NCBI GenBank assembly: GCA_945787125.1
Contig: CALZHW010000005.1
Location: 7,848-53,846 of the forward strand
Direction: 5' to 3'
Length of the DNA: 45,999 nucleotides
Origin: an uncultured Ectothiorhodospiraceae bacterium
GTDB lineage: Bacteria > Pseudomonadota > Gammaproteobacteria > S012-40
In this document: one piece after another, positions 20,958-37,876 of the stretch
Layout of the letters: the number at the start of each line of letters is the position of its first letter
Position numbering within the stretch: position 1 is the first letter of the stretch
Notes under the pieces: model-generated
The model's database searches: none
The model's input: only the letters and a program-made list of their open reading frames with translations
What the model was told of the DNA's origin: nothing
Program-made: the position numbers and the translations under genes

Positions 20958-22265
20958 ATGCTTGTGGAATCAATGAATTATATGGATGATTTATCAAACA
21001 AGGCCAAAGTACTTCGGTTTATTCCTTTTCGTAAGGCCGATGTTATCGAAATGTGTGTTCAGCAGGGTGGGCTAGGGTCGACCGACCAAATTTTGTTTCG
21101 AGAATTTTGTTTTCGATTACAAAGTTTATTTCATTACCAGTTTCATCAGCAATTGGAGGCTCTGAAAGATGTGTATGTACCGTTAGATCCCGATGCGGAT
21201 ACCCGCCAGGTCGAGTTGCCTGCAAAACCCGGAATGCGGGGCAACATAGCACAAGATCCTCGCGAGTTTTCTGCCATGTTGGAAGCGTTGTTAGTTAATG
21301 CAAACTACGAAAAATTGGATCAGTCTGATTTAGCCCAAGCTTTGCAGGAAGCCTCAATATTTAAAATAAGGTTGCAGGTGGATTTTGAAGATTTTTCTGA
21401 TGTTTTAATTTACCTGCGTGGTGAATCAGTGCAAGAAGAAACAGTTAGTAGCTGGTTTGGATTACGCAAAAAGGTCATAGAGTTTGTTAATTATGATCGT
21501 GTCTTGATTTATATAAAATTCAAAGACGATTTCATCGCAAATAAATCCGCTTTAAGGTCTTATCAATCTGGCGCGACGTTACTTAAATTGTTTCAAAATG
21601 TGCCTAAAGCCGATATTGAAATGTTGTTCCCCAATACGCAGGTTCGTATGCGTAATATCGATAAGATCATGATCGGCGTACCCGCGGCCATTAGTGGTGG
21701 TATTGTGCTGGCAACCAAGCTGGGTGCTACTTTGATTTTGCTGGCGTCACTTATCGGCTTCTGGATTGGTTTGCACACGGAGAGTGTGGCGTTGGATAAT
21801 ACCGCTTTAGCCACTTTGTTTTTCGGCCTGGCGGCACTGGGCAGTTATTTGTGGAAACAGTTTAGTAGTTTTAGTAATCGAAAATTACGTTTCATGCAAA
21901 CGTTAATGAAAAATCTGTATTTCAAAAATCTGGATAATAACGCGGGCGTTTTTCATCGTTTAATCGATGAAGCCGAAGAGGAAGAGTGCAAAGAAGCTAT
22001 TCTTGCTTATTATTTTTTACTCGCTCAAATTGAGCCAATTTCGCAAGCCGCATTGGATGATATCGTCGAAAAATGGTTTAAGACTTGCTGGCAGTATGCG
22101 CTAGATTTTGAAATAAGCGATGCACTGGATAAACTGGAAAAGCTTGGTTTGATTGAGAAGACTAATGATCTGATTACTGTGTTGCCGCTTGATCAGGCAG
22201 TAATGAAAATGCAATCTCATTGGAATGATGCATTGCTTTTTAAGCCAGGGAAAGCCCATTCCTAA
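20958..22265 (+). CDS. DUF3754-like (TMEM143-like) membrane protein
   Basis: 435 residues. The N-terminal ~230 residues are soluble and include FEDFSDVLIYLRGE and a segment IEFVNYDRVLIYIKF typical of DUF3754/TMEM143 proteins. Two to three hydrophobic segments at about 237-300 form a membrane hairpin, followed by a conserved-looking soluble part (KNLYFKNLDNNAGVFHRLIDEAEEEECKEA read in pieces) and a C-terminal helical domain. The function of the family is unknown. Starts at 20958, 20973 or 20982 are all possible; none has a strong Shine-Dalgarno. It is convergent with the response regulator gene, only 15 bases apart. Confidence 0.72.
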   Translation: MLVESMNYMDDLSNKAKVLRFIPFRKADVIEMCVQQGGLGSTDQILFREFCFRLQSLFHYQFHQQLEALKDVYVPLDPDADTRQVELPAKPGMRGNIAQDPREFSAMLEALLVNANYEKLDQSDLAQALQEASIFKIRLQVDFEDFSDVLIYLRGESVQEETVSSWFGLRKKVIEFVNYDRVLIYIKFKDDFIANKSALRSYQSGATLLKLFQNVPKADIEMLFPNTQVRMRNIDKIMIGVPAAISGGIVLATKLGATLILLASLIGFWIGLHTESVALDNTALATLFFGLAALGSYLWKQFSSFSNRKLRFMQTLMKNLYFKNLDNNAGVFHRLIDEAEEEECKEAILAYYFLLAQIEPISQAALDDIVEKWFKTCWQYALDFEISDALDKLEKLGLIEKTNDLITVLPLDQAVMKMQSHWNDALLFKPGKAHS

Positions 22266-22280
22266 AAGGCTTAATGCATA

Positions 22281-23987
22281 TTATGATAGCCAGCTAAAAA
22301 TAACTCGCACACTGTTCCCTGGCTCGTTGAATTCCAGTTTGTCGCAGAGATTTCGAAGTAATAAAAACCCTCGGCCACTATTTTCATTGGTGGCTGTGTA
22401 AGAATTTTCGAGCACTTTTTTAAAATCGAAACCTGGACCTGAGTCAGTAAATCGAATCTCCAGCTGGTTGATGTTTTTGTTTTCCATAAAGGATAATGAG
22501 ATATTAATCGATCCGCTTTTGAGTTTTTTTAGACGCCGTTCTTTTTCTTTAAAGTAACTAAAAAATCCTTCAGTAGATGATTTTAGATCTGATTCAAGCT
22601 TTAATACACCATGATCCAGTGCATTGGTATACAGTTCCGTGAAAATGGTGAACAGTGTTTCATGACGTTGCTCAACACGACTTATGGTGTTCACAAAATT
22701 GATTAGGGTGGGAATTGGATCGATGTGACCTAAATTTTTATTCTGGATACTAATGTCAAATTTAATCGGATCATCGAGTTCGATTACCGTGTTTTTCTGG
22801 TGGAAATATTTTTCTTCTTTTGTTTGCCCGATATTTGACTCAGGGGTAAGTGTTGGTATGCAATGAATTTCGACAAGACTAAAGTTTCTGATGTTTTCGG
22901 CGCATTTTAAACGTTTCATAATGTGGTTTTTCAGGCCATCAAACAAAGATTTCTCGGCTAGTGAGGCAGTGAGACATTGTTCGATTTTTTCATTTTTGAT
23001 AGTTTCTGTTTCGGCTTCATCTGCCAATTTACCGCAGGTCATGATGATACGCTGCTCACTATTTAATGAAAAGTTAGTAAAAGCCTGTTCAGATTCTAGA
23101 TTTTTGTTTTTTCCCAAAAGCCGGGAGCTCGGTTTTATACGCTGTATGATGGTGTGAGTTGCGTCAGAGGTGATAAAAGCCTCGGGCATGCCAAAATTAG
23201 CGCAGGTCAATAAGTTGACGTCATGATTGAAATTTAAAAAAATGGCCTGAAATTCGATAGCGGTAGATAGCAGGTCGCACAGTTTGTTATTCAGCGTGTC
23301 TATAATTTCATGGGAGGAATAGCCTTTACTGCTCATGGCATTAAAGGTTTCTGAGGTGGTCAGGGCGCCTACGGCTGCTGCTGTTCCTTCCATATTCAAA
23401 CGGCCGAATAATACATTTAAACCATTTGATGGGGTATCTGCGGTTAGCAGCAGATCGTTGTTAAAACGTTCATTGTTTTTAAACCAGCTTTTGATCGCAG
23501 GGATGTTTTTGTTCTTTTTGAAGATAGCTTCGGTAAAGACTTTTTTCGCCAGCTGGTCATTCTCAGACAGTTGACGATTAAGTGTGGTCAGGTCTTGATA
23601 AAGTTTGCGATCTCGTTCTACGGCGTGAACTTTAGCTTTTAAGGCTGTTATATCGTAAGGTTTGGCGATAAAGTCATCGGCGCCTGCGACAATGCATTGT
23701 TCGATTTGCGGGTTACAATTGGGTGTTGTCAGAATGATGATAGCAATAAAATTGTCAGCAGCATTTTTTTTAATTATTTGTGTGGCTTCGTAGGCTTTTC
23801 CATCAGGCATGATGGCATCCATACAAATGAGTTCGAGGTGTTCCGTCCCGGCAATTGTTATGGCTTTTTCAGCATTTTCGACCTCAATAACACGGTAGTT
23901 CAAAAATTCGAGAAAATTTATCAGTGTCTCGCGGCTGGAGACATTGTTATCGACGACGACGGCTTGCTTTTGGGGGTAGATAGGAAT
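22281..23987 (-). CDS. Response regulator with degenerate PP2C and HATPase domains (HsbR/RsbU-like layout)
   Basis: Domains: receiver (about 1-130), linker, PP2C/SpoIIE-like domain (about 170-380) and RsbW-type ATPase (about 420-568). The receiver has VVVDNN, phosphoacceptor-like CMDAIMP, LTT and AKPYD. In the PP2C part the metal site GDxxGHG is replaced by GRLNMEGTAAA, so phosphatase activity is doubtful. The ATPase has the N box TELYTNALDHG, G1 FTDSGPGFDF and G2 GRGFLLL. The first beta strand of the receiver is encoded upstream of 23903, where the only usual start (TTG) lies, and no ATG, GTG or TTG exists between the previous stop and there. ATT at 23985-23987, five bases after the upstream stop, is the best start (568 residues). 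Such proteins control sigma factor partner switching; partners are not visible here. Confidence 0.72.
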   Translation of the reverse strand: MPIYPQKQAVVVDNNVSSRETLINFLEFLNYRVIEVENAEKAITIAGTEHLELICMDAIMPDGKAYEATQIIKKNAADNFIAIIILTTPNCNPQIEQCIVAGADDFIAKPYDITALKAKVHAVERDRKLYQDLTTLNRQLSENDQLAKKVFTEAIFKKNKNIPAIKSWFKNNERFNNDLLLTADTPSNGLNVLFGRLNMEGTAAAVGALTTSETFNAMSSKGYSSHEIIDTLNNKLCDLLSTAIEFQAIFLNFNHDVNLLTCANFGMPEAFITSDATHTIIQRIKPSSRLLGKNKNLESEQAFTNFSLNSEQRIIMTCGKLADEAETETIKNEKIEQCLTASLAEKSLFDGLKNHIMKRLKCAENIRNFSLVEIHCIPTLTPESNIGQTKEEKYFHQKNTVIELDDPIKFDISIQNKNLGHIDPIPTLINFVNTISRVEQRHETLFTIFTELYTNALDHGVLKLESDLKSSTEGFFSYFKEKERRLKKLKSGSINISLSFMENKNINQLEIRFTDSGPGFDFKKVLENSYTATNENSGRGFLLLRNLCDKLEFNEPGNSVRVIFSWLS

Positions 23988-23992
23988 GCTAC

Positions 23993-24310
23993 TTAGTTGA
24001 TTACATTGAGAGTTAGCAAGCGAGCAGTTTGTCCGCAGCGTTCGACATTAGCGATGCTTCCCATCGGTTCTAAGCAAAAATGAATGCGTTGTCGATCTTT
24101 CACCTGTGATAGAAAGGCTGCCATGTTTATCAGGTAATAGTCGTTATTAGCATCGTCTCTAATACTAAAAAAACCACCACGCTTACGCATATAAATGATT
24201 GTTCCGGTACCAGAAATACTGGCGCCATTGTGTGACGTGTTTAGATTATGAGTATTTTGATTAAAGCGACCAATGAATGTTTTACAGTATTGCGACACTT
24301 TTCCCATCAT
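23993..24310 (-). CDS. Small protein of unknown function between peptidase and response regulator genes
   Basis: 105 residues, beta-rich by pattern, with GTGTIIYMRKRGGFFSIRDD in the centre and a Val/Leu-rich end. The spacing of the GT-I, GFF-I and DYYL blocks is loosely like an OB or cold-shock fold, but this is weak. The ATG at 24310 has TAGGTGAG upstream; a GTG at 24319 is possible. It starts ten bases after the peptidase stop and ends five bases before the likely response regulator start, so it is in the same transcript. No function is assigned. Confidence 0.6.
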   Translation of the reverse strand: MMGKVSQYCKTFIGRFNQNTHNLNTSHNGASISGTGTIIYMRKRGGFFSIRDDANNDYYLINMAAFLSQVKDRQRIHFCLEPMGSIANVERCGQTARLLTLNVIN

Positions 24311-24319
24311 GCTGCTCAC

Positions 24320-25195
24320 CTATTCACTTAAAAAGAGTTGCGGGTCTACCCGAGTATTGTTGAGGCTCACTGTCCAGTGCAAATGCGCGCCAGTGGCACG
24401 ACCCGTTTTACCCACCTTGCCGAGCCTGTCTCTGGTGTTTACCCATTGATCTTTTTGCACCTCGATTTCGCTCAAGTGGCAATACATGGTGATAACACCT
24501 TGACCATGATCAACAAATACGGATTTCCCATTAAAGAAATAGTCACCGGTTTCAATGACTTTGCCCGCTGAGGGCGCAATTATTGGACTTCCTTCAGCTG
24601 CTGCAATATCCATTCCGCTATGTGGCCGTCTGGGTTGTTTGTTGAAGACCCGCCGTGAGCCAAAGCTACCACTTTGCACGCCATCGACCGGCGCTATAAA
24701 TCTAAGATTAATGTCTTCAGCATCGCGCCAGTGTTTAAACGCATTTGTGATTTGCGGTCGCTCGCGGGTAATTCTTGCCATATCATTCTTGTTGGGATTT
24801 ACCTTGCGTTTGTCTTTAATCGTAATATGTTGAGTACGATATGCTTTGTCTTCAATTGTAAAGAAAACCTTGTTTTGTTTGTCTTGTCGGCGGACTTGCA
24901 CCGTTTGTTGGCCAATTTTTGCACTGAGCGGAATGCCGATCACCGCAACCCACTGATTGTTATTTTGCAAAACAGTGATGGGCGTTTTATTAAACGTGAC
25001 TTGAGGTCGTGGCAGGGTGTTTTCCCCTAGCTCAAGGATGGCGATTCCGCCGGGCACCAGCGATTGTTGGGGCAGGTTGACGGCAAGTGCAATGCTGGTA
25101 TTACCGACCAGGCTGGCCGTGCTGATGGCAACCGCCAGAAAGCAAGAATAGCTAATTGACTGTAGTTTTTTTAACGGTGCAAATAAGTTTTCCAT
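24320..25195 (-). CDS. M23 family peptidase (LytM-type)
   Basis: Zinc endopeptidase of the peptidoglycan-cleaving LytM/lysostaphin group, probably periplasmic. From the ATG at 25195 it has 291 residues: an N-terminal signal/anchor segment (about 13-40), a beta domain (LVPGGIAILELG...), and the M23 domain in the last 120 residues with HSGMDIAA (His, Asp), the strand IITMYCHL and the HLHW motif. The zinc ligands are thus intact. The frame also permits a start at 25222. The start overlaps the end of xseA by 44 bases. Similar peptidases often follow xseA. Confidence 0.9.
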   Translation of the reverse strand: MENLFAPLKKLQSISYSCFLAVAISTASLVGNTSIALAVNLPQQSLVPGGIAILELGENTLPRPQVTFNKTPITVLQNNNQWVAVIGIPLSAKIGQQTVQVRRQDKQNKVFFTIEDKAYRTQHITIKDKRKVNPNKNDMARITRERPQITNAFKHWRDAEDINLRFIAPVDGVQSGSFGSRRVFNKQPRRPHSGMDIAAAEGSPIIAPSAGKVIETGDYFFNGKSVFVDHGQGVITMYCHLSEIEVQKDQWVNTRDRLGKVGKTGRATGAHLHWTVSLNNTRVDPQLFLSE

Positions 25196-26504
25196 GGTGT
25201 AATTGGATATCCAGTTCGTCATTAATTTTCACTTGATCAGATGAGTTTACTATGCAGTTATTATTCCGTTGTTTTACGATAGAATAACCTCTTTCTAACG
25301 TAGCCAACGGGCTAAATGCGTTAAGTGTTTTGGCATTTAACGCTAATTCATTTCGCTTCGCCTGAATTGTTTGTTGTATGAGCTTGAGCAAGTTTACGTG
25401 CATTTGCATGAGCGATTTTCGTTGCAGCGCTAATTGCCGTATGGGTGAAACGGTTTGTAATAGACGGGTCTTTTGCTGCAGTAAGCTTACTTTGTTGTGT
25501 ATGATTCGTTGCATGTTGTGTCGCAGGCGAAGTTCCAGGTCATCGATTTTTTGCGACATTTCGCGGAGTTGCTGAGCCGGGTGTTTTAAGCGTCGGGTCA
25601 TGTGAGTCAACTGCAGACGTTCGTGTTTTATCACCTGTTTGACGCGCTGAACCAGTTTTAGTTGTTGTAGCTTGAGACGTTGCAGTATTTCTTTGACATC
25701 TGGCACCACCAGTTCAGCGGCCGCTGATGGAGTTGACGCACGTTTATCGGCGACGAAATCAGCAATGGTGATATCGATCTCATGGCCGACGCCGGAGACA
25801 ATGGGCAAACGACTTTGAAATATTGCACGTGCAACAACTTCCTCATTGAACGCCCATAGGTCTTCCAGCGAACCACCACCGCGCGCCACGATCAATACGT
25901 CGCAGATGTTTTGGGTATTGGCTTGTTGAATTCTTTTGGCAATTTGTCTGGCTGCTGTGTCACCTTGCACCAGGGTTGGGTAAATGACTACCGGCACCGC
26001 GGGGAAGCGTCGTTGTAATACGCTCAGGATGTCTCTGATGGCTGCTCCGGTTGGCGATGTGATTACGCCAATTTGCTTTGGCATCTTTGGTAGTGCTTGT
26101 TTGACGGCCGGGCTGAAAAGTCCTTCGGTCTCAAGCTTTTTTTTCAAGGCATCAAATTGTCTTTGCAGCGCACCAAAACCTGCTTCTTGCATATTTTCAA
26201 TGATTAATTGATATTCGCCGCGCGCTTCATACAAGCTTATTCTGGCTTTGACGATGACTTTATCGCCTTGTTTGGGGATAAAGTCAGTACCAGCACTGCG
26301 GTTTTTGAACATCGCACAACGCACTTGCGCTTTGTTATCTTTTAAACTGAAATACCAATGACCGGATGATGGTGCAGCAAAATTTGATATTTCGCCTTCC
26401 AGCCAGATAAGCGGAAAACCGGTTTCCAGCATCACTCTGACATCGCTGTTCAGTTCTGAAATAGTATAGATGTGACGGTTGTCGTCACTGTTATGAGTAT
26501 TCAC
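25152..26504 (-). CDS. xseA: Exodeoxyribonuclease VII large subunit
   Basis: Catalytic large subunit of ExoVII, which digests single-stranded DNA from both ends. The product has 450 residues: the N-terminal OB-fold domain (VWLEGEISNF-like, here PLIWLEGEISNFAAPSSGHWYFSLKD read in parts), the central catalytic region with GVITSPTGAAIRDIL and ARGGGSLEDLWAFN, GVGHEIDITIADFVAD, then a long coiled coil, and a C-terminal segment ending LERGYSIVKQ. The small subunit xseB is not in the window. It leads a minus-strand set with the M23 peptidase, a small protein and a response regulator. Confidence 0.95.
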   Translation of the reverse strand: MNTHNSDDNRHIYTISELNSDVRVMLETGFPLIWLEGEISNFAAPSSGHWYFSLKDNKAQVRCAMFKNRSAGTDFIPKQGDKVIVKARISLYEARGEYQLIIENMQEAGFGALQRQFDALKKKLETEGLFSPAVKQALPKMPKQIGVITSPTGAAIRDILSVLQRRFPAVPVVIYPTLVQGDTAARQIAKRIQQANTQNICDVLIVARGGGSLEDLWAFNEEVVARAIFQSRLPIVSGVGHEIDITIADFVADKRASTPSAAAELVVPDVKEILQRLKLQQLKLVQRVKQVIKHERLQLTHMTRRLKHPAQQLREMSQKIDDLELRLRHNMQRIIHNKVSLLQQKTRLLQTVSPIRQLALQRKSLMQMHVNLLKLIQQTIQAKRNELALNAKTLNAFSPLATLERGYSIVKQRNNNCIVNSSDQVKINDELDIQLHHGKLICTVKKTTVN

Positions 26505-34655: not shown

Positions 34656-36377
34656 TCAGAATATTTGACGGTTTAGGGCGTAAATCAATGCAATATTGGT
34701 GATGAGCAATAGAATTGAAATTGCTTTCCAAAAACCAATAGGGTTCTTATCCAGCAAAGGCTCTGAGTGTGTTTTACTGAGGTCTTTATTAGGGGTTGAA
34801 ATATCTAACATGAACTCGGAGAGCGCTTGATAACGGCGTTGTGGATTAAGCCGTACACCTTTTTCAAGTGCCGCATCAATCCATGCGGGAATTTGATCAT
34901 TGATTCGATTTATCGGAATGTATTTAACGCGCTTCAAGGTGTTCGTTGAAAGCGCGCTACCGTACGGCAATTGGCCACTAAGCATTTCATATGCCATCAC
35001 TCCGATGGAGTATATGTCTGACTGATGGGTGCCAGCATAGCCTTGAAAGTATTCCGGTGCAGCGTAGTTCAACGTTCCGAGTAATTCATTTTGTGCAATG
35101 GGTTTGTTGATTTCCTGAATGCCAGCGATTTTGGTTGAACCGAAATCAATGATTTTTACAGTGCCTTGTTTGTCAATCATGATATTTTCAGGCTTTAAAT
35201 CTTGATGAATCATTTCTTGTCGTTGAAAGGCTCTTAAGCCGGTAACGACTTGCTGAATGATTTCTCGTGTCTCGCTTATTGAAGCGTTTGGATTATCTGT
35301 CATCCATTGGCGCAAGGTGATGCCATCAATGTACTCAGTGACATAATACAAAAATTTGCGTTGATTTTTTCGCTTGAGGACTTTAAGTACGTGAGGATTA
35401 TTAACTCTTCTGCCTGCCCACTCTTCGCTTACGAAGCCATCGATATAAGTGGGATCGTCTTCAAAATTTACCGAAGGGGTTTTTAGTATAACCTTGTTGT
35501 CATTTTCAATATCAAGCGCAAGATAAACCTGGGTTCGTTTTGAAGCGTGTATTTCTCGTAGAATTTTATAACCATCGAGAATCATGCCGACTTCCAGGGG
35601 CGGAGGAAAAGGTAGCTCTGTTAACTGTTTATAGAAAGTTTCCTGATCAAGGTGAGGTAAATTTTCGATACGGCACACTTGGCAGGTAACATTGTCATTG
35701 CTGCCATTTTCGAGCGCTTTGGTGATAATTTCGCGGCTTGCTTTTTCAGGATTTTGGTAGTGTTTTTTTATAATATCTATTAGGTCTTGCGTGCGTACAA
35801 ATTCATGCACTCCATCGGTGGTCAGCACAAATATGTCATTGGGTTCCAGGTCGATGCTGCGGTAGTCAATTTCTACATTGAGATCAGCGCCCATGGCGCG
35901 ACTAAGGAAGGCCTTTTCATGATCGCCCCAGCGATGGTGATCGCGCGTTAGTCTTTCAAAATCGTTGCCTCGCAAGCGATAGACGCGCGAGTCGCCGACG
36001 TGAAAGATATGCCCGGTGGAGGATTTTAAGACGATGGCGCTGAGTGTCGTCAGCATACCGAGACCGGCGTGATGATGCAGGTTTTGGCTTTGACCGAATA
36101 ACCAGCGATTAATCGCACCCAGTACTTTTTGGCAGGAGGTTTTCACCGTCCAGGATTCAGGGGTGCTGTAATAATCGTTAACCAGGCTTTTAACACATGT
36201 TTCACTGGCCTCACGCGCTGCAAGACTACTGCTCACGCCGTCGGCAATTGCGACGACAATGCCTTTAGTGGTTAGTAGTGGTTCAGCAGGAACGCGAATG
36301 GCGCAAGCATCTTCATTGCGTTCCTTGGTGCCTTTTTGGCTATATTGGCCAGCAATGATTGAAAGTGATTTAGTCAT
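34656..36377 (-). CDS. PP2C phosphatase - serine/threonine kinase fusion with C-terminal membrane anchor
   Basis: 573 residues. Residues 1-240 are a PP2C phosphatase with metal-site motifs RNED (20-23), ADGVSS (45-50), HVGDSRVY (126-133), TTDGV (186-190) and NDNV (227-230). Residues 268-525 are a protein kinase: Lys299 (VILK), HQD (391-393; Gln instead of the usual Arg), Asn398, DFG (411-413) and PE of the APE motif (441-442); the glycine-rich loop is not recognisable. A membrane helix at about 551-569 ends the protein. Such fusions sit beside nitrate transporter genes in several proteobacteria. It follows narK by 29 bases and likely acts on the transporter or the reductase pathway, which is inference. 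Confidence 0.92.
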   Translation of the reverse strand: MTKSLSIIAGQYSQKGTKERNEDACAIRVPAEPLLTTKGIVVAIADGVSSSLAAREASETCVKSLVNDYYSTPESWTVKTSCQKVLGAINRWLFGQSQNLHHHAGLGMLTTLSAIVLKSSTGHIFHVGDSRVYRLRGNDFERLTRDHHRWGDHEKAFLSRAMGADLNVEIDYRSIDLEPNDIFVLTTDGVHEFVRTQDLIDIIKKHYQNPEKASREIITKALENGSNDNVTCQVCRIENLPHLDQETFYKQLTELPFPPPLEVGMILDGYKILREIHASKRTQVYLALDIENDNKVILKTPSVNFEDDPTYIDGFVSEEWAGRRVNNPHVLKVLKRKNQRKFLYYVTEYIDGITLRQWMTDNPNASISETREIIQQVVTGLRAFQRQEMIHQDLKPENIMIDKQGTVKIIDFGSTKIAGIQEINKPIAQNELLGTLNYAAPEYFQGYAGTHQSDIYSIGVMAYEMLSGQLPYGSALSTNTLKRVKYIPINRINDQIPAWIDAALEKGVRLNPQRRYQALSEFMLDISTPNKDLSKTHSEPLLDKNPIGFWKAISILLLITNIALIYALNRQIF

Positions 36378-36406: not shown

Positions 36407-37876
36407 TTACTTTACGTCAATCATTTGTACAGTACCATCTGGCAAGGTTTCAGCGATTTGGCCTTTTGGTTCTTCGAGAAAGAAGATGATCAACACTAAA
36501 ACCAGTGCCGCAATAATGCCAATGAATAAAAAGAACTGATCATAATCGACTAACGAGTTAACGGTTAAAAACATGACAGCACCGACATTGCCAAAGGCAC
36601 CGGCCATGCCGGCGATTTGTCCGGTCATGCGGCGTTGAACCAATGGCACCATAGCATAAACTGCGCCTGAACCGGCTTTAGAAAAAATTCCGGCAAATAT
36701 GGTGATGCTTACCACGAGCCAAACTGGCCAGGACTGATCCACAAAACCGAGGATTACAAAACCCGCCGTAATGCCAGCAAAGACTATCATCAATGTGAGT
36801 TTGCGGCCAATCAAGTCGCTAACCCAGCCGCCACCGGGACGAGCAATCAAGTTTATAAACGGATAGATGCCGGCGAGTAATGCAGCGGTGACTTTAGGGA
36901 TGTCAAACCAGGAAACATAAAACATGGCGAGCATGGAAACCACGGCCAGTTCAGTGCCAAACGTTACCAGATAGGCCCAGTCCAGAATAGCCACCTGTTT
37001 GAATTTATAGCGCATCATTTCGGGTACGGGTTTTTTCAAAATATGTTTGTTAACCTGCCAGATTTTCCAAATTTGCACTAAATAAATGACGAACAGCGAT
37101 GCATAGATGAGATAAGTTATCGATTGATCAATCATTCCCATTTGCGCGGGTGATAGTTTCCAGGCTAGCAGCGCCAAAGCTAACAGTAGGGGGATGTTCA
37201 TTAGCATATAAAGTATCAAGTCACCGCCGCTGGTAACTTCCATGGCGCCTATTTTTTTAGGTTTAAAATAGGTTGACCCTTTGGGTGTATTGGAGACTTT
37301 GAAGAAGTAAAGAATGCCATAAAGTATTGCGGCTATGCTGGCCACAGTTAACGCATATCGCCAGCCTTCGTCACCACCGTAGTTGGCGGCAATGAAGGGT
37401 AATGTCATGGCGGCGCCTGCTGAGCCAAAATTGCCCCAGCCACCATAAATGCCTTGTGCCAGCCCAGTTTGTCTTGCGGGAAACCATTCGCCGATCATGC
37501 GAATGCCGACGACAAATCCAGCACCGATAAATCCTGACAGAAATCGCAGCAAGGCAAGTTCTTCATAACTTTCAGCCCAGGCGAAAGCAATGCTTATGAA
37601 ACCACCGATTACCAGGATGCCCGTATACATGATGCGCGGGCCGTATTTATCAACTAACATGCCGACCACAATACGTGCAGGAATGGTCATAGCAACATTG
37701 AGAATTAACAATACCTTCGCTTGCTGGTCAGTGAGATCCAGGGCTTCTTTAATAAAAGGCATTAACGGGCCCAGTCCCAGCCACACGACAAATGTCATAA
37801 AGAAAGCAAACCAGGTGTAGTGTAATATTTGAATATTTTCTTTTTTAAAGTTTAATATATTGAGTTTTTCAGACAT
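36407..37876 (-). CDS. narK: Nitrate/nitrite transporter, MFS NarK/NasA type
   Basis: 489 residues with about 12 membrane segments. The first loop has LGPLMPFI and the MFS/NNP segment GMLVDKYGPRIMYTG; the nitrate signature is visible in AGFVVGIRMIGEWFPARQTGLAQGIYGGWGNFGSAGA (read in parts) and in the second half in GAVYAMVPLVQRRMTGQIAGMAGAFGNVGAV. The TM4-5 insertion (about 195-280) is long, as in assimilatory forms. It is divergent to nirB across a 535-bp regulatory gap and co-oriented with the kinase/phosphatase. Confidence 0.93.
   Translation of the reverse strand: MSEKLNILNFKKENIQILHYTWFAFFMTFVVWLGLGPLMPFIKEALDLTDQQAKVLLILNVAMTIPARIVVGMLVDKYGPRIMYTGILVIGGFISIAFAWAESYEELALLRFLSGFIGAGFVVGIRMIGEWFPARQTGLAQGIYGGWGNFGSAGAAMTLPFIAANYGGDEGWRYALTVASIAAILYGILYFFKVSNTPKGSTYFKPKKIGAMEVTSGGDLILYMLMNIPLLLALALLAWKLSPAQMGMIDQSITYLIYASLFVIYLVQIWKIWQVNKHILKKPVPEMMRYKFKQVAILDWAYLVTFGTELAVVSMLAMFYVSWFDIPKVTAALLAGIYPFINLIARPGGGWVSDLIGRKLTLMIVFAGITAGFVILGFVDQSWPVWLVVSITIFAGIFSKAGSGAVYAMVPLVQRRMTGQIAGMAGAFGNVGAVMFLTVNSLVDYDQFFLFIGIIAALVLVLIIFFLEEPKGQIAETLPDGTVQMIDVK

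Follow-up and report, generated by a model that had tools for sequence, protein, structure and literature searches.

The window, a stretch of 45,999 nucleotides from the genome of an uncultured Ectothiorhodospiraceae bacterium (G000), carries a response regulator gene that follows a gene which we take to be xseA, as named in the initial annotation, an M23 peptidase gene and a small ORF, all on the same strand (Table 1); this arrangement, already described in that annotation, agrees with the ORFs and the Pfam matches. The regulator frame is open from 24047, where it overlaps the small ORF, to a TAA at 22283-22281, and holds 568 codons free of stops and frameshifts; the small ORF ends in a TAA at 23995-23993. 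A convergent gene for a 435-aa protein (20958-22265, forward strand) ends 15 bp from the regulator stop, and the terminator scan lists no site between the two genes. Pfam gives no match for the small ORF, which also follows the M23 gene, as a conserved neighbour, in five further members of the family; its AlphaFold model comprises five strands and a short helix, with weak structural matches to OB-type folds, including CspA and IF1 (best E 1e-3).

Table 1. Features of the regulator gene and its surroundings, in positions of the window.
Feature	Position	Strand	Remarks
Receiver / pseudo-PP2C / RsbW-like ATPase protein (L001)	22281..23987	-	Length of 568 residues with ATT 23987 as start
Receiver domain	23616..23969	-	Residues 7-124; retains the D57 phospho-acceptor and K109, with N14 in place of the second acidic residue
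PP2C (SpoIIE-type) domain	22857..23501	-	Residues 163-377; loss of the active site through D196R, H200E, D319G, D367R, D368N
RsbW/SpoIIAB-like HATPase	22287..22766	-	Residues 408-567; TELYTNALDHG, DSGPGFD and SGRGF kept
ATT candidate start	23985..23987	-	Proposed in the initial annotation; 5 nt after the small-ORF stop
ATC alternative non-canonical start	23979..23981	-	More usual distance to a weak AAGTAG element
Off-frame ATG	24004..24006	-	Near the position of the G004 ATG, which precedes the first receiver Asp by 18 codons; TAA directly after
Small upstream ORF	23993..24310	-	105 aa when started at its ATG; OB/cold-shock-like fold predicted; position after the M23 gene conserved among relatives
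M23 peptidase gene	24320..25222	-	ORF list and Pfam
xseA (presumed), exonuclease VII large subunit	25152..26504	-	Order conserved in G004

The three domains of the protein all score above the Pfam cut-offs (Response_reg, 62.9 bits; SpoIIE, 35.7 bits; HATPase_c_2, 29.5 bits), and their order of receiver, SpoIIE-type PP2C and RsbW-like HATPase is that of HsbR from Pseudomonas and CrsR from Shewanella. The ATPase boxes of these proteins are present as well; unlike HsbR and CrsR, the window protein has dead PP2C motifs, no adjacent STAS antagonist gene, an Asn as the second receiver acid (VVVDNN) and no standard start codon. The replacement of the PP2C metal motif GDFTGHG by GRLNMEG, pointed out in the initial annotation, is accompanied by the loss of two later motifs, SDG having become CGK and DD having become RN. 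Judged by motif, R196, G319 and N368 presumably stand in the places of D628, D746 and D795 of SpoIIE. These three SpoIIE side chains are described as putative metal ligands in the corresponding study (PMC5468089). The PP2C fold itself is retained in the AlphaFold model (mean pLDDT 79.9), for which the best multi-domain structural matches are RssB from P. aeruginosa (3f7a and 3eq2, the best overall) and the RsbU-RsbW protein Rv1364c from Mycobacterium tuberculosis (3ke6); the VIA-align structural rows consist for the most part of isolated receiver domains and are hardly informative on the other parts. Rv1364c resembles the window protein in combining a PP2C and a neighbouring RsbW-type kinase within a single chain. 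Its sensory and STAS parts are different, and it is not known to have a receiver.

Homologues were drawn from three sources: relatives, where 53 of 56 genomes gave a match at E 0.001, mostly to the receiver only; an even draw of the class, with matches at E 1e-40 in 63 of 369 genomes; and named genomes, with 80 loci, of which 52 were processed (48 giving a frame) and 28, receiver-only, were left unused. The resulting alignment of 127 sequences excludes two duplicate loci (L097 and L116) and includes a few fragments; the tree was built without four of the sequences, and the reference set of 117 intact homologues excludes these four, L163 and the five sequences without an intact site. A position is called near-invariant here if it is conserved in 95% or more of this set. 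Homologues from named Pseudomonas with an adjacent STAS gene, which we take to be HsbR, fall in the same alignment and tree as the window protein.

All five tested PP2C positions are kept in 122 of the 127 sequences, the exceptions being the window protein, L009 from G004, L062 from G143 and two partial sequences (L022 and L090). Intact orthologues, named in the initial annotation as evidence against a dead PP2C, are therefore abundant in the family as a whole, but the closest relative, L009 (38% identical), has lost the site too, and the loss is thus real and lineage-specific. Whole-genome searches found no relative closer than this one, and in the scan of named genomes no full-length match exceeded 35% identity. 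Of the 22 near-invariant PP2C positions, 8 are present in the window protein and 12 each in L009 and L062, whereas every intact homologue keeps at least 19; for the HATPase, the corresponding figures are 14 of 14 in the window protein and in L009, and 13 of 14 in L062. The same picture is obtained with the positions unvarying in the 25 intact members of its clade (35 in the PP2C and 30 in the HATPase): 16 and 30, respectively, are kept in the window protein, and 20 and 30 in L009. These counts indicate that the PP2C has been released from constraint and the HATPase has not. The regulator with the dead PP2C in G143 (L062/L223) comes third in a row, after an MCP-like gene and then a STAS gene, and represents an independent loss beside a STAS protein with an intact Ser; given this row, the site has been lost at least two times, once beside an intact phosphosite.

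In the tree, the window protein and L009 are sisters (support 1.0) within a clade of 27 (support 0.999), whose other 25 members retain the PP2C site; the full-length matches and the tree together establish common descent with the STAS-linked proteins of the same domain order. A gene for an HsbA-like STAS protein is present in 91 of 129 homologue loci, usually directly upstream, and its phosphosite reads DSSALG in 83 of the 90 examined. In the clade, such a gene lies nearby in one of the 27 members, and the true partner of these proteins may therefore differ from STAS. The order of xseA, M23 gene, small gene and regulator is common to the window and G004; within the stretches compared, no other homologue locus has xseA or small-ORF genes beside the regulator, and in four other family members the small gene after the M23 gene is followed by no regulator in the stretch examined. 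From these gene orders, the regulator most likely joined the locus in the common ancestor of G000 and G004.

The roughly 28 codons between the upstream in-frame stop and the first strand of the receiver contain no ATG, GTG or TTG, just as the initial annotation had noticed, and the first listed start of the frame is a TTG at 23903, inside the receiver. By base composition alone, 28 codons would lack all three with a probability of 0.26; their lack is meaningful only in that translation has to start in that stretch. The preference of that annotation for ATT 23987 is not upheld, since ATC 23981 is as good a candidate, the two tying at -1.4 kcal/mol with the same Shine-Dalgarno-like element, and an assembly error or decay may also account for the missing start; a start at ATT 23987 is accordingly unproven. 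In the comparison of orthologues, an ATG, GTG or TTG precedes the receiver Asp by four codons or more in 124 of the 126 homologues examined, and a canonical start is found in all 26 other clade members, including the G004 ATG, so that the missing start is a derived trait of this genome. The second exception among the 126, in a single-contig genome (G046, L013/L039), is a protein of the same domain order with an intact PP2C, encoded about 300 bp after its STAS gene. The distance from the small gene to the regulator is 217 bp in G004 and 5 nt here, counted from the small-ORF stop to the ATT, and the promoter scan shows no excess over shuffled sequence (8 found, 8.7 expected); this spacing and the lack of promoter-like excess make re-initiation after the small ORF reasonable. 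Re-initiation from non-AUG codons has been reported from a test in E. coli with a mutant initiator tRNA (PMC2268962). A frameshift fusion of the small ORF with the regulator was considered and dropped, as no slippery heptamer is seen by eye and the two genes are separate in G004.

The canonical starts of the clade mates also fit a sequencing or assembly error that hides an ordinary ATG such as that of G004, and the ATG at 24006, one frame off, would point to an indel. On the other hand, the small ORF matches G004 and other homologues in frame and length up to its stop, a match not expected after an indel in the overlap; no Shine-Dalgarno pairing accompanies the off-frame ATG, and the spacing of the two genes differs from that in G004 regardless. 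Such an error, which would concern the start codon only, is a possible but rather unlikely explanation. The same missing start could alternatively be the first fatal step in the decay of an orphan regulator that is shedding its parts, and the long terminal branch (1.28 against a median of 0.42) and the drift of the receiver, which retains 5 of 9 near-invariant positions, can be read in this way and against a working kinase, as can the relic state of the cognate regulator in G004. Decay appears improbable, nevertheless, for a frame that has stayed open throughout and has kept every clade-invariant ATPase residue; moreover, G004 combines a normal ATG with the same dead site, which indicates that the dead PP2C is old and maintained.

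Partners suggested for such a protein, a STAS antagonist and a sigma factor, are both encoded in its own genome, where the search proposed in the initial annotation recovers an HsbA-like STAS gene and RpoS. This assembly is 94.59% complete in 321 contigs, and absences from it are therefore provisional. Among its six STAS matches, the HsbA-like orthologue is G000:C171:5628-5930 (E 3e-32; next best 7e-6), with DSSALG present and the Ser at residue 56 by our own count. It lies after an MCP-like gene and before a gene that is presumably aminopeptidase-like, and no response regulator is adjacent. The phosphosite of P. aeruginosa HsbA is likewise Ser56 (PMC5085249). The STAS orthologue of G004 is 67% identical and also has an MCP-like gene before it; directly after it (L222, G004:C9), the cognate response regulator is a relic with several stops, and a LuxR-type regulator follows. 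In its genome, no protein other than the window protein gives an HATPase_c_2 match above the curated cut-off. In G004, further HATPase_c_2 proteins pass the cut-off, three of them of about 300 residues, and a kinase role in that genome consequently need not rest on the regulator gene. The sole intact SpoIIE-type phosphatase found in G000 is a receiver-PP2C protein (G000:C32:18108-19250), encoded beside an Hpt gene. At this locus (L199, 3672-5254), Hpt and receiver-PP2C are separate neighbouring genes; in G004 and several relatives they form one chain. The idea that this protein is a complement produced by loss of a HATPase was abandoned, the relatives being Hpt-receiver-PP2C proteins without HATPase, with the Hpt part encoded by a gene of its own in G000.

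The STAS protein is dephosphorylated by the PP2C of HsbR and CrsR, while their HATPase either phosphorylates it or holds RpoS (PMC6482189, with PMC5085249 as a further source for the biochemistry). An ancestor of this type would have set the phosphorylation of a STAS antagonist with a kinase and a phosphatase in one chain; in the present lineage, the PP2C has turned into a pseudophosphatase, and the HATPase has remained fully constrained. With the PP2C dead and the HATPase conserved, the protein would phosphorylate its STAS partner without reversing the step, or would hold the sigma factor through its HATPase as CrsR holds RpoS, or both, and probably works as a one-way switch. The most likely partner would be the HsbA-like protein of C171, and the reverse step may be carried out in trans by the receiver-PP2C of C32 beside its Hpt. 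We give this reading as a whole a probability of about 60%. Which protein binds which, and in which direction the signal runs, is inferred, as is the pairing of the three loci, which have no physical link. The earlier suggestion that the protein may bind an anti-sigma partner but not dephosphorylate it thus stands as regards the lost active site; with STAS and RpoS both encoded, it is plausible that the protein binds a STAS antagonist or acts on it as a kinase.

The pseudo-PP2C may then relay the signal from receiver to ATPase, or dock the STAS protein or RpoS, in a manner comparable to E. coli RssB and sigma-S. E. coli RssB is a receiver-PP2C protein that lost catalysis, became a sigma-S adaptor and kept its switch (PMC12143880 and PMC7226468); it is a precedent for such a loss and makes a remaining role as relay or dock conceivable. 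The likeness is that, in RssB as in the window protein, the receiver precedes a PP2C fold devoid of active-site residues. It could be carried further, with the pseudo-PP2C as the working part that binds RpoS or STAS directly and with no enzymatic step, and the best structural matches (P. aeruginosa RssB), the presence of RpoS in the genome and the sigma-S binding reported for the PP2C fold of E. coli RssB in the same studies (PMC7226468, PMC12143880) are in line with such an adaptor. However, RssB is a degradation adaptor with no HATPase, whereas the constrained part of the window protein is precisely the ATPase (14 of 14), and the PP2C is the domain that has lost most of its conserved positions; a purely adaptor-like function is therefore given little credence.

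The kinase reading can be extended to a switch that has been taken apart, and the conservation pattern leads us to propose the window protein as its kinase/anti-sigma arm, with the C32 protein as the putative phosphatase arm. In the full form of this proposal, the regulator of the STAS operon would have been lost; an orphan paralogue would have taken over the kinase/anti-sigma half, with its PP2C as a receiver-controlled dock; a separate, Hpt-linked receiver-PP2C would act as the phosphatase; two phosphorelay inputs would act with opposite sign; and the kinase arm would be made at a low level through non-canonical re-initiation. This full form is conceivable but rather unlikely. If it were true, a stress or motility switch would have two independent phosphorelay inputs of opposite sign.

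The HsbR/CrsR family of stress and biofilm switch regulators is itself already known, and the dead PP2C, which is real, is of more interest than the start codon. No description of an HsbR/CrsR protein with a dead PP2C was found in the partial texts of the literature searched, a collection from which subscription journals are mostly absent. In these regulators, the opposing enzymes share one chain, so that the half that determines the output is difficult to identify; a kinase-only version made by nature, its site lost at least two times independently and a candidate phosphatase present in trans, would allow testing of how the balance is set, and would offer, in addition to RssB, another route from a PP2C of stress control to a pseudoenzyme. 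Elsewhere in the window, a PP2C fused to a Ser/Thr protein kinase is encoded on the reverse strand (34656-36377) and adjoins an MFS transporter gene (36407-37876), the product of which presumably resembles a nitrate transporter.
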